The position numbers and the translations under genes were made by a program. DNA of 52,298 nucleotides, taken from an uncultured Gammaproteobacteria bacterium (GTDB lineage Bacteria > Pseudomonadota > Gammaproteobacteria > GCA-001735895). The stretch's first letter is position 1. Each line of letters starts with the position of its first letter. The notes beneath the pieces were generated by a model. That model was not told the DNA's origin and searched no databases. It was given only the letters and a program-made list of their open reading frames with translations. The DNA is taken from NCBI GenBank assembly GCA_937894085.1, contig CALCSG010000018.1:1-52298 (forward strand), in the 5' to 3' direction. This document shows, piece after piece, positions 31,300-38,165 of this stretch.

Positions 31300-31339
31300 A
31301 CCGGGATAAACTGGGATTGAGCAAAGGTTGTGTGCATGT

Positions 31340-31707
31340 GGGTTTCCGGCCTGCATAACAGCCGTTTAGAAATGGCTAATATTCCACGGTGTGCCAGGAG
31401 TATGTATTAGGACTCCAACGCGGTGGGTATTCGTGAACCCAGAATTCCTTATTTGACTGATAGTTGGCAGCGTGCTAGATTTGTACGGATTGGGCTACAC
31501 CTTATTTTACGCCCCTGGTTCGGGTCCGGGGCGACGGTTAAACCGGTTAGGCTGTACTCCAATATAGAGACCCGGACTGCGCTAGGCGCAGTAAATGACC
31601 AACTTTGACTCCATTTGCGCTAACGCGCATGCCTGTGCTCCAGGCGACCTCCGAGACCCGCGGAGGGGATGACGGTCCAAGCTGGTTGAACTATTGGAGC
31701 AACCAAA
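31340..31707 (+). ncRNA. long structured leader RNA upstream of the peptide gene (candidate)
   Basis: About 400 bp between the T5orf172 gene and the 64-residue peptide gene hold no convincing protein gene but a dense series of hairpins: 31360-31365/31372-31377, 31511-31518/31526-31532 (loop TTCGGGT), 31576-31582/31586-31592 (7 bp, loop TAG), 31616-31620/31625-31629, 31631-31635/31641-31645 and 31648-31653/31661-31666 (6 bp). CTCCAATA at 31557-31564 can pair with TATTGGAG at 31692-31699, which contains the Shine-Dalgarno GGAG of the peptide gene. The same GGAG also lies in the loop of a 6-bp hairpin (31683-31688/31700-31705). Two mutually exclusive states, ribosome site open or closed, are therefore drawable. 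A cis-regulatory RNA or a separate small RNA are both possible; I know no matching family. Confidence 0.5.
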
Positions 31708-31902
31708 ATGACTCAACCTACCTCGAAATGTTCGCGGGACAACCGCGCGAACCAACTCAATGCCATTCACCCTGTTTACTACCGTTCGCGTGGAGCATCA
31801 TCAAACGAAGCTCAATCCCGTGCGGAACAACGACAGTCAATACTAAATAAACAAGCAACTAAGCATCGCCATGATCGCCATGGTTCTGGAGGTGCAGAAT
31901 GA
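31708..31902 (+). CDS. 64-residue peptide, candidate modified-peptide precursor
   Basis: A short hydrophilic peptide with GGAG eight bases before its ATG; its stop overlaps the epimerase start (ATGA), so it is translated and coupled to the operon. The N-terminal part has one Cys (residue 8), then CSRDNRANQLNAIHPVYYRS followed by RG. The tail is rich in Arg, Gln, Lys and His and ends HRHDRHGSGGAE. The central motif recalls a short motif (DNRxNQxNPNN...SRG type) that I remember from small uncharacterised proteobacterial proteins; this is unverified memory. As the first gene before a radical SAM/glycosyltransferase, an epimerase and a methyltransferase, it is the natural substrate candidate, with the Tyr pair, His, Ser or Cys as targets. 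No leader cleavage site is evident. Confidence 0.65.
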   Translation: MTQPTSKCSRDNRANQLNAIHPVYYRSRGASSNEAQSRAEQRQSILNKQATKHRHDRHGSGGAE

Positions 31903-35173: not shown

Positions 35174-36840
35174 CATGGAAGAAGATGACTATCGCCCCTG
35201 ACAGCACTCATCACTTAAATAACGGAGTCTCTACTTACACCGCACGCTTCGACGAGGTCTTGAAATTCCATGCACCGGGTCTTGCGTCCGTCCGACTCAA
35301 TGGGGATGCCTGGCACATTCACCCTGATGGACATGCCGCCTATCCCGGGCGCTTCCGACGAACATTCGGTTTCTATGAGGGGCTCGCAGCGGTCATTAGC
35401 GAAAGTGGCTGGCATCATATCACCCCCGATGGTACGGATGCCTACACAGGGCGATACGCCTGGTGTGGTAATTTCCAATGCGGTCGCTGTACGGTGCGAG
35501 AACTTGATGGCCACTACTTTCACATTATCCGCGAAGGCATGCCCGCCTATGCAGATCGCTGGCGCTATGCTGGTGACTTCCGTGATGGCATTGCCGTGGT
35601 GCAGGATGAGAACGGCCGTTCCACACACATCGACGCAACCGGGCGGCGTATGCACGATGGCTGGTTTCTCGACCTCGATACTTTCCATAAAGGCTTTGCC
35701 CGAGCATGCGATGAGACTGGCTGGATGCACATAGATATCACCGGGCAACCAGTTTACAACCAGCGTTTCGCTTCTGTTGAGCCATTTTACAACGGCCAGG
35801 CGCGCGCGGAGCGTTTTGACGGCGGTCTTGTGGTCATTGAAGAGGCAGGATCAATTATGCTCGAACTTCGTCCCGCTCTTCACAGTGAGTTTATGGCCTT
35901 ATCTGGGGACCTGGTCGGGTTCTGGCGAACGCAGGCAATTGCCGCAGCAGTTGAACTCGGTATATTCGAGGCACTGCCGGGGTCTGATGTAACTATCGCG
36001 CAAGTATGTAACCTGCGGCCCGACCGTACAGAGCGCCTCTTGCGCGCCCTGGCCGAGCTCTCTCTGGTATTAAAAGAGGGCCAGCAGTGGTATCTGACCG
36101 CCAGGGGAGAATACTTACGCGTTGATCACCCCTGGACACTGTCGGGTGCGGCCCGCGAGTATGGACACTACTTTCCCGAGATGTGGAGGGCACTGCCGGA
36201 CGCTATGCAAAAACAAGGGAACTGGAGTTCACCAGACATCTTTGGTGATCTTTCCAGCGATGAGTCTCGACGTAAAGAGCACCACCGGATGCTCCAGAGC
36301 TACGCTCGGCACGACTATACCGGCGTGCCCGCAGCCATGGCTCTTGACGGCAATGAGCGCATCGTGGATGCCGGCGGGGGCCTCGGTGTTCTCGCTTCAT
36401 CTCTGGCAGCACACTATCCGCATCTTTATGTGCTACTGCTCGACAGACCTGAAGTCATCGAGCAGGCCGTGTCGACAGGCCTTCTCTCAGATCGCATCAA
36501 AGGTTGGGGCGGTGATCTCTTTGAGCCGTGGGGTATCGAGGCAGATGCTGTTGCCCTGGCCCGAGTCCTGCATGACTGGAACGATAGCGATGCACTACGG
36601 ATACTGCACCAAGCCCGAGCTGCGCTCTCGCCTGGTGGGCGATTGTTCATTGTTGAGATGATCGTCCCTGCGGACAGTGCTGTGGGGAGCTTGTGTGACC
36701 TGCACCTGTTAATGGCGACTGGCGGCCAGGAGCGCACGGCCGCAGAATACGCAAGTCTCATGGAACGGTCCGGCTTTTCGTTCTCAGAAATCCGTCAACT
36801 CCCTGCGCTGCCCTCTGTCATCGTGGGAGTCGCGCGATGA
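35170..36840 (+). CDS. WG-repeat protein fused to O-methyltransferase
   Basis: A 556-residue fusion. Residues 1 to about 230 are a run of WG-type repeats of about 35-40 residues, each with a pattern such as GLAAVISESGWHHI...YTGRY, which form beta-rich binding surfaces. Residues about 235-556 are a class I methyltransferase of the plant/acetylserotonin O-methyltransferase type: a dimerisation helix domain (AIAAAVELGIFEAL), the SAM loop VDAGGGLG (D400 onwards), LLLDRPEV, LARVLHDWND (catalytic-base His position) and LSPGGRLFIVEM. It would methylate a hydroxyl, for example a Tyr or sugar hydroxyl, perhaps recognised by the WG part. It overlaps its neighbours by 4 nt. The fusion is unusual and both halves are clear. 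Confidence 0.85.
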   Translation: MTWKKMTIAPDSTHHLNNGVSTYTARFDEVLKFHAPGLASVRLNGDAWHIHPDGHAAYPGRFRRTFGFYEGLAAVISESGWHHITPDGTDAYTGRYAWCGNFQCGRCTVRELDGHYFHIIREGMPAYADRWRYAGDFRDGIAVVQDENGRSTHIDATGRRMHDGWFLDLDTFHKGFARACDETGWMHIDITGQPVYNQRFASVEPFYNGQARAERFDGGLVVIEEAGSIMLELRPALHSEFMALSGDLVGFWRTQAIAAAVELGIFEALPGSDVTIAQVCNLRPDRTERLLRALAELSLVLKEGQQWYLTARGEYLRVDHPWTLSGAAREYGHYFPEMWRALPDAMQKQGNWSSPDIFGDLSSDESRRKEHHRMLQSYARHDYTGVPAAMALDGNERIVDAGGGLGVLASSLAAHYPHLYVLLLDRPEVIEQAVSTGLLSDRIKGWGGDLFEPWGIEADAVALARVLHDWNDSDALRILHQARAALSPGGRLFIVEMIVPADSAVGSLCDLHLLMATGGQERTAAEYASLMERSGFSFSEIRQLPALPSVIVGVAR

Positions 36841-38165
36841 ATGATCGCATCAAATGGCGCATTCCACCGTCTGTATTACGCGGCCTCATGGAAATGCCGA
36901 AAGATCGCCCCATAGCCTTGCTCTTGCGACACTCCGTGCGAGATGAACTTCCACCTGGCAATGCAGGAAACTCGCTCCCAATCACCGCTGATGGAATCCA
37001 TCTGGCGCAAGAGCTTGGCGGGTTGATTGGGGATCGACTTCGCTCTCTTCATACCAGTCCGCTCACGCGCTGTGTTCAAACGGCCGAGGCACTGAATGAC
37101 GGTGCAGGCACCAATCTGAGTATCGTGCATGATCGACTCCTTGGTGACCCTGGTGTTTTCGTCATCGATGGACAACAGGCGCAACTGAATTGGGAAAAGC
37201 TTGGGCACGAAGGTGTTATGCAGCATCTTGTTGTGTACGACGAAGCATTGCCCGGTATGGCCCGACCCGAACCAGCCGCACGTTTCCTCGTTCATCACAT
37301 GCTCTCGGTTGCCGGTGATGTTCCTGGCCTTTACCTGTTTGTCACGCACGATTCGTTGGTCACTGCTTCAGCAGCTCGACTACTTAGACAACAGCTAGGG
37401 ATCAATGCCTGGCCATGGTACCTGGAGGGCGCCTTCTTCTGGCGTAAAAAGGAGGGTCTCTATACAAAATATCGTGACCATCATCATCTTGCCGTACCTG
37501 GGGCGCTCTGCAGCCTCAGTAAAGATGATGTGGTAGAATTTGCGCGCCGAGAGATCGCTCGAACCGTGGGCCTTGACAGCGGGGCGCGCTTCTTTCTTGC
37601 AGGAGGCGCATTCAAGACGCTGCTGACCGGACGGTCACCTCGAGATCTTGATCTTTGGGCTCCATCTGCCAGGGACAGGGAGCTTCTTATCTCAACTCTT
37701 GAAAAGCGAGGGGCGATACGCTTACCCGACAAGCCCTACTCCGATGCATTCCAAATTCATGAACGAGTAGTTGAGATACCTCACGAGGTAGGACCCACGT
37801 CACTGGATGGACGGCTGGCACGGTTTGATATCGCGATTGCTGCCGTTGGTGTAGAGCATTGTCCGGATGACAGCTGGACCGCATGCATCCATCCGCTGGC
37901 AACGGAATCTGTTGATCGACAGGAGGTGCTATTGCTCAAGCCATTGGTCAATTGGAAGTACGCACTTACGACGCTCGAAAGGATGCGGCGTTACGCCACT
38001 GAGCTGGGATTCGTCGTTCCAAAAAAAGAGGAAGAGGAGATTCGACGGGAATTTCTTATGCAACCCCCAGAGATTAGGGCCGGTATGATTGCCCGCTTCG
38101 AGCGTACGACCCTTGGTGTTTCAGGTTCAAACGTTGTAGAGGAAGCAGTATGTTGGTGTCAGTGA
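36837..38165 (+). CDS. histidine phosphatase fused to nucleotidyltransferase-like domain
   Basis: A 442-residue fusion. The N-terminal half is a histidine-phosphatase (phosphoglycerate-mutase-like) domain: LLLRHSVRD (R31, H32; RHS instead of the common RHG), HTSPLTRCVQTAEAL and a second catalytic His in FVTHDSL (H171). The C-terminal half resembles a nucleotidyltransferase-fold domain, LAGGAFKTLLTGRSPRDLDLW (GG at 256-257, D270-x-D272), like tRNA-CCA/Pol-beta-type active sites. The third catalytic acid is not obvious. It overlaps the methyltransferase gene by 4 nt and is the last gene of the operon. It might remove a phosphate and add a nucleotide during peptide maturation, or control the modified product. 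Domain calls are good; role unknown. Confidence 0.8.
   Translation: MNDRIKWRIPPSVLRGLMEMPKDRPIALLLRHSVRDELPPGNAGNSLPITADGIHLAQELGGLIGDRLRSLHTSPLTRCVQTAEALNDGAGTNLSIVHDRLLGDPGVFVIDGQQAQLNWEKLGHEGVMQHLVVYDEALPGMARPEPAARFLVHHMLSVAGDVPGLYLFVTHDSLVTASAARLLRQQLGINAWPWYLEGAFFWRKKEGLYTKYRDHHHLAVPGALCSLSKDDVVEFARREIARTVGLDSGARFFLAGGAFKTLLTGRSPRDLDLWAPSARDRELLISTLEKRGAIRLPDKPYSDAFQIHERVVEIPHEVGPTSLDGRLARFDIAIAAVGVEHCPDDSWTACIHPLATESVDRQEVLLLKPLVNWKYALTTLERMRRYATELGFVVPKKEEEEIRREFLMQPPEIRAGMIARFERTTLGVSGSNVVEEAVCWCQ

Follow-up and report, generated by a model that had tools for sequence, protein, structure and literature searches.

The Undecim Cluster of Wolbachia phage WO (WD0611-WD0621) is a horizontally transferred set of eleven genes without assigned function, which has been published as highly expressed and which also occurs on Rickettsia plasmids and in Cardinium (PMC9203015; PMC4701759). 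Earlier work had already pointed out the fusions of a glycosyltransferase (GT) to a radical S-adenosylmethionine (SAM) enzyme and of KWG repeats to an O-methyltransferase, and had found homologues of them in Haliangium, Desulfovibrio, Capnocytophaga and Saprospira (PMC4701759). We describe here a related operon from an uncultured Gammaproteobacteria bacterium, found on a stretch of 52,298 nucleotides (contig CALCSG010000018.1, in its whole length referred to as the window). The operon consists of five open reading frames (ORFs) on the forward strand, each overlapping its successor by 4 nt. They code for a 64-residue peptide (the SRG peptide), a sugar epimerase, a fusion of a GT4 glycosyltransferase with a radical SAM/SPASM enzyme (GT4-rSAM), a fusion of a WG-repeat domain with an O-methyltransferase (WG-OMT) and a fusion of a histidine phosphatase with a nucleotidyltransferase (HisPhos-NT). 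A structured leader RNA precedes them (Table 1).

The comparison with phage WO (MN180251.1) is straightforward for the enzymes, as the WD0613 homologue is 53% identical to GT4-rSAM over the full length and is flanked by homologues of the epimerase (WD0612, 42%) and of WG-OMT (WD0614, 33%), in the same order as in the window. This trio corresponds to UC2-UC4 of the published cluster (PMC9203015). The enzyme set is therefore not new, although an earlier note made on this DNA from its sequence alone had seen in the unusual fusions a candidate for a new peptide-modification operon; the trio had already been described in phage WO (PMC9203015, PMC4701759). Only these three of the eleven genes are shared, however, and the neighbours differ: the phytanoyl-CoA dioxygenase, ABC exporter, threonine aldolases and transporters of the Undecim Cluster are absent from the operon, whereas the cluster has neither the SRG peptide nor the leader RNA. 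Homologues of the histidine phosphatase or the nucleotidyltransferase were not found in phage WO. A peptide hidden in the gap before WD0612 was considered and rejected, as there was neither a match nor a suitable ORF at this position. An Arsenophonus plasmid (L036, CP132904.1; related loci are given by such numbers) carries the same enzyme trio, also without the peptide. Both versions have dioxygenase and threonine aldolase/serine hydroxymethyltransferase genes, with the ABC exporter in phage WO, and the plasmid also carries panB, panC and panE (pantothenate synthesis) alongside the trio. As far as we have searched, what is new is the form in free-living bacteria, which has the peptide and the leader; the literature on the domain combination, on GT4-conflict or on the SRG motif yielded nothing direct.

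The domain fusions and the gene order are real, ORF coordinates and Pfam matches agreeing with the five ORFs, the unbroken overlaps and the fusion enzymes read by the earlier note. The same is true for the nucleotidyltransferase half, which had also been proposed there: although a Pfam search gave no match for this C-terminal domain of HisPhos-NT, its AlphaFold model (predicted local distance difference test 90) matches class II tRNA nucleotidyltransferases (E 5e-9). Structure searches relate the GT half of GT4-rSAM to MshA and BshA, and the radical SAM half to SkfB and SuiB, so that its nearest solved folds are maturases of ribosomally synthesised and post-translationally modified peptides (RiPPs). 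No known anti-phage defence system was matched by the operon proteins, for which PADLOC models gave weak, domain-level matches only.

A scan of genome contigs identified 26 related loci, among which the five-gene order recurs. They belong to Proteobacteria, Myxococcota, Planctomycetota and Verrucomicrobiota, apart from a single contig assigned to a Bacteroidota bin. The enzyme was also present in 29 of 379 genomes sampled from the phylum of Sorangium (partly the genomes of the contig scan) and in 2 of 395 Bacteroidota genomes, both of these copies being distant (about 51% identical); a pattern search of the viral contigs in IMG/VR returned no relative. In total the survey covers about 45 loci, many of them metagenome-assembled contigs, with genes called by ORF length. 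GT4-rSAM of the genome-contig loci shares 64-76% identity with the window copy over the full length. Its invariant positions number more than 200, among them the GT4 E-x7-E motif, the radical SAM CxxxCxxC motif and the SPASM cysteines.

The remainder of the operon is variable. A WG domain follows GT4-rSAM in nearly all loci with sequence at that position, regardless of its fused partner, which may be an O-methyltransferase, a protein-kinase-like domain or a P-loop kinase. A histidine phosphatase follows in most loci, with or without the nucleotidyltransferase, and other variable genes code for a tyrosine-type phosphatase, a carbamoyltransferase, extra radical SAM proteins and a class II aldolase-like protein (the identities of this last group being read from the sequences). 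Thus epimerase, peptide and post-WG domains come and go while GT4-rSAM and WG are kept in nearly all of the loci, as would be expected of a biosynthetic core to which exchangeable tailoring is added. In one variant of the operon (L020, L032, L103-L105, L110) extra radical SAM genes follow the phosphatase, and two of these loci (L020 and L032) also carry a carbamoyltransferase.

The SRG peptide is a real, conserved gene. A hidden Markov model built from 8 homologues locates it at the corresponding position of additional loci, including those of other phyla, with the family-wide motif D-N-R/H-x-x-Q-L/C-N-P-x-x-x-x-Y-Y/W/H-x-S/D-R-G and a variable tail; in L101 and L108 the motif is tandemly doubled. 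The earlier note had asked whether the peptide is conserved beside the enzymes. It is so in about half of the related loci; the others lack it, and no other conserved short ORF takes its place there. Its distribution over the GT4-rSAM tree is scattered and requires 7-11 changes. The motif also occurs without the operon enzymes, beside unrelated genes in genomes and on plasmids; on those of Pseudomonas, Thioclava, Cereibacter and Vibrio the neighbours are helicase, DUF4357 or TIR genes. Some small proteins carrying it stand in tandem, and proteins of 200-270 aa bear it as a tag at the N terminus. In L037-L041 and L061-L064 it takes the form DNRSNQLNPNNDAYWxSRG, in lone small proteins, in tandem or as an N-terminal tag. 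Solved structures searched with the motif gave no match. Because the motif occurs without these enzymes and the peptide is absent from about half of the loci, conservation of the peptide is unfit as a mark of a substrate of the operon enzymes.

The leader RNA lies within the region covered by the earlier note, where it had gone unnoticed. Folding of the single sequence is uninformative (z -1.2), and the structure emerged from comparative analysis alone: the region 5' of the peptide can be aligned across loci, with compensatory changes in 27 of 41 pairs in a first alignment. A covariance model built from 14 sequences matches loci outside its training set, namely L107 (83 bits), L101 (69), L097 (59), L015 (42), L010 (31, partial), L099 (30), L109 (28) and L105 (27), with a weak match in L028 (10.5 bits). 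In an alignment of 21 sequences 88.8% of the cells pair and two-sided changes occur in 30 of 39 pairs; the covariation score, which is favoured by the alignment having been fitted to the model, is 0.511, compared to 0.177±0.014 for shuffled alignments (0 of 500 reaching it) and at most 0.136 when slid. The leader loop can pair with either of two competing sites, and in two loci the loop and both partners have changed together: L107 (loop UUGGGUC, partners GACCCAA and GACCCA) and L097 (loop GAGUC, with GACUC and ACUC as partners).

The leader is present in about 22 of the 45 loci, as a single copy per genome located at the operon, and with few exceptions it ends 17-20 nt upstream of the codon at which the first gene starts. 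This is so even in L010, which lacks the peptide and keeps the leader 19 nt 5' of the epimerase start. Leader and peptide tend to occur together (both in 19 loci, leader only in 3, peptide only in 3, neither in 20; Fisher p 8e-7, for hand-compiled counts from loci that are related and not independent). No leader accompanies the stand-alone SRG peptides on the plasmids and genomes tested. In the window the -10 element of a promoter-like site ends about 6-7 nt 5' of the leader, and TTGAC(A/T/G) is found at equal distance from the leader in about half of 20 loci. As this site lies just upstream and the leader keeps a fixed distance from the first start codon, it is most likely the 5' untranslated region (UTR) of the operon. 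A covarying 5' UTR structure at a fixed distance from the start codon is what we observe; a role as regulatory switch is inferred.

Table 1. Coordinates of the operon, its leader RNA and neighbouring features in the window
Feature	Position	Strand	Remarks
BREX locus	4702-25611		BrxC, two PglX, PglZ, BrxL
Ppl (PADLOC match)	14751-17621
Orf5 (PADLOC match)	17693-19381
Uracil-DNA-glycosylase-like gene, first copy	29667-30194		truncated
T5orf172 (GIY-YIG-like) protein	30394-31299		possible treble-clef zinc finger
Promoter-like site TTGACT-17-TAGATT	31453-31481	+	9/12 matches; chance expectation 0.6 sites of this kind
Structured 5' leader RNA, ~200 nt	31487-31688	+	comparative structure; ends 19 nt before peptide ATG
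Leader loop CGGGUC	31521-31526	+	complementary to two GACCCG sites
Pseudoknot partner site 1, GACCCG	31569-31574	+	changes in step with loop in L097, L107
Competing partner site 2, GACCCG in hairpin loop	31655-31660	+
Ribosome-binding site GGAG	31696-31699	+	directly 3' of last leader helix; similar spacing in nearly all leader-bearing loci
SRG peptide, 64 aa	31708-31902	+	motif DNRxNQLNP-x-HP-x-YYRSRG, variable tail
Sugar epimerase/dehydratase, NAD-dependent	31899-32825	+	Pfam epimerase 1e-40
GT4-rSAM ORF	32822-35173	+	single fused gene
GT4 glycosyltransferase half	32822-34111	+	Pfam 5e-25; retaining GT-B fold; E-x7-E motif (E337/E345)
Radical SAM + SPASM half	34184-35173	+	Pfam Radical_SAM 2e-12, SPASM 1e-8; C456-x3-C460-x2-C463
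WG-OMT fusion ORF	35170-36840	+
WG-repeat domain	35170-35874	+	Pfam WG repeat 1e-7
O-methyltransferase domain	35902-36840	+	Pfam Methyltransf_2 1e-35
HisPhos-NT fusion ORF	36837-38165	+
Histidine phosphatase domain	36837-37500	+	Pfam His_Phos_1 1e-5; RHS motif
Nucleotidyltransferase domain	37521-38165	+	signature GGAFKTLLTGRSPRDLDLW; resembles head of class II CCA/A-adding enzymes
Uracil-DNA-glycosylase-like gene, second copy	38780-39451
Two overlapping tyrosine recombinase genes	39972-41560		read from sequence

Of several possible explanations we favour, with roughly even confidence, a mobile biosynthetic operon akin to the Undecim core, in which the core enzymes attach a sugar to an acceptor and modify it by radical chemistry, and the SRG peptide is not an obligatory substrate; whether this acceptor is something other than the SRG peptide we regard as evenly balanced. 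The operon would be transcribed from its own promoter through the leader RNA, which would probably act in cis on translation or transcription. Judging from the enzyme families, the epimerase would supply a nucleotide sugar, the GT4 half would transfer the sugar to the acceptor and the fused radical SAM/SPASM half would alter the glycosylated acceptor. The WG domain may hold a substrate or partner, while O-methyltransferase, phosphatase and nucleotidyltransferase may contribute swappable steps of tailoring, protection or activation. The SRG peptide could then be an optional co-expressed small protein of this branch, acting as partner, immunity protein or carrier. In support of this interpretation, none of the 11 genomes searched that lack the peptide at the locus (L010, L013, L016, L017, L020, L023-L027 and L034) encodes it elsewhere, in a search that scored only the best 150 candidates in large genomes and missed the degraded copies of L014 and L029.

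That scope of the search is one of several points that weigh against our interpretation. Peptides are frequent substrates of SPASM radical SAM enzymes and, as described above, the solved structures nearest in fold to the radical SAM half are those of RiPP maturases. The peptide is the first gene, is translationally coupled and is only patchily absent, and this patchy absence would also fit a substrate that is encoded elsewhere in a form which the search cannot recognise. Somewhat less probable than our interpretation is a new glycosylated radical SAM RiPP, with the SRG peptide as precursor: GT4-rSAM would glycosylate the peptide and cross-link it, or modify it in another way, in or beside the conserved NQLNPxxPxYYxSRG block, and O-methylation and processing would follow. 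In favour of this reading, a conserved peptide 50-70 aa in length is coupled to the enzymes, tandem motif copies as in L101 and L108 are known from multi-core precursors, and the likeness to SkfB and SuiB points in the same direction. However, the enzymes persist without the peptide in about half of the loci, including the 11 genomes searched, and likewise in phage WO and on the Arsenophonus plasmid; conservation of the motif is also seen apart from these enzymes, and no leader-binding RiPP recognition element (RRE) domain is seen in the operon. A precursor encoded and conserved with its maturase is expected of RiPPs; the SRG peptide accompanies the enzymes in about half of the loci, and its motif is found without them too. 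The earlier note had envisaged a heavily modified ribosomal peptide; this is a possible reading of the sequence, which is supported by the recurring gene order, the peptide in about half of the loci and the maturase-like fold, and is not supported by the peptide-less loci, the retention of the leader in L010 and the occurrence of the motif elsewhere. We consider it unlikely, taken as a whole, that the leader is a riboswitch-like RNA of a new class, its loop competing for the two GACCCG sites, which senses a product or precursor and thereby governs a novel class of peptides built on the SRG peptide by glycosylation and radical SAM chemistry, used by mobile defence islands and present in stripped form in phage WO.

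Modification of a cell-surface polysaccharide or lipopolysaccharide, as has been proposed for the Undecim Cluster (PMC9203015, PMC4701759), would account for the epimerase and GT4 domains. We nevertheless regard such a module as improbable, as the radical SAM/SPASM, WG and phosphatase domains, and elsewhere the carbamoyltransferase and kinase, resemble tailoring enzymes of small products; a simple polysaccharide pathway was rejected, no flippase, polymerase or ligase being seen in the operon. It is more improbable still that the RNA works in trans, as a guide, substrate or ribonucleoprotein scaffold, with the CCA-adding-like nucleotidyltransferase acting on this RNA: the strong structural conservation of the leader and the CCA-enzyme-like fold would fit, but the RNA reaches right up to the site where ribosomes bind for the first gene, no terminator-like site was found 3' of the RNA, and action of the nucleotidyltransferase on the leader was rejected because their presences do not correlate across loci (RNA without nucleotidyltransferase in L009, L012 and L019, nucleotidyltransferase without RNA in L016).

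The operon is mobile and, as the earlier note had claimed, is located in a defence island, with a BREX locus upstream. The two PglX paralogues of this locus (1131 and 1103 aa) are adjacent, and the PADLOC matches to Ppl and Orf5 sit between PglX and PglZ. The operon is probably of foreign origin, because the GC content rises to 0.53-0.58 over it, compared to 0.36-0.46 in the flanks. An 8.6-kb stretch with the operon is bracketed by two copies of a uracil-DNA-glycosylase-like gene, which share at least 300 nt of identical sequence and look like the footprint of an insertion or recombination. A T5orf172 gene lies directly 5' of the leader, and the tyrosine recombinases 3' of the operon are possibly the mobility genes of the island. 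Location in defence islands extends to related loci, where about a dozen of 80 flanking proteins (as a raw count) have known defence functions: MzaABC, type IIG and III restriction, Cas3/Cas7/Cas8c, BrxH, AbiEii and AbiJ. In L019 (15669-22329) the MzaABC genes are immediately downstream of the operon. As to an antiphage or antibacterial role, nothing can be inferred beyond this location.

This operon family ties the unexplained, highly expressed Undecim Cluster to free-living bacteria, where its chemistry is testable, and related operons are carried by the cultured Azospira oryzae, Sorangium cellulosum and Nannocystis pusilla. It also adds a short protein motif that is found alone, in tandem or tagging other proteins in mobile DNA. 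Among characterised enzymes, SkfB and SuiB share with the radical SAM half the fold, the CxxxCxxC motif and the SPASM cysteines; the operon enzyme differs in being fused to GT4 and in the lack of a visible RRE domain, and a peptide substrate is putative in its case. The mycofactocin pathway likewise combines a small peptide, a radical SAM/SPASM enzyme, a glycosyltransferase and a methyltransferase in one cluster. To our knowledge, its glycosyltransferase is separate and it has no WG domain, phosphatase, leader RNA or noted common peptide motif, and none of its NCBIfam models was among the matches listed (the best 25 each for the epimerase and GT4-rSAM). The pathways of the nucleoside/sugar antibiotics tunicamycin and blasticidin S resemble the operon in that a glycosyltransferase, a radical SAM enzyme, a short-chain dehydrogenase/reductase epimerase and a phosphatase act on a glycoside; this likeness is one of description, and we know of no peptide, WG domain or leader RNA in these pathways. 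The leader RNA, finally, matches no family when compared to the covariance models of Rfam 15, and with its two competing pairings it is a candidate for a new class of structured leader; it nevertheless shares with the riboswitch-type leaders collected there a conserved, structured 5' UTR that abuts the ribosome-binding site, and two mutually exclusive pairings.

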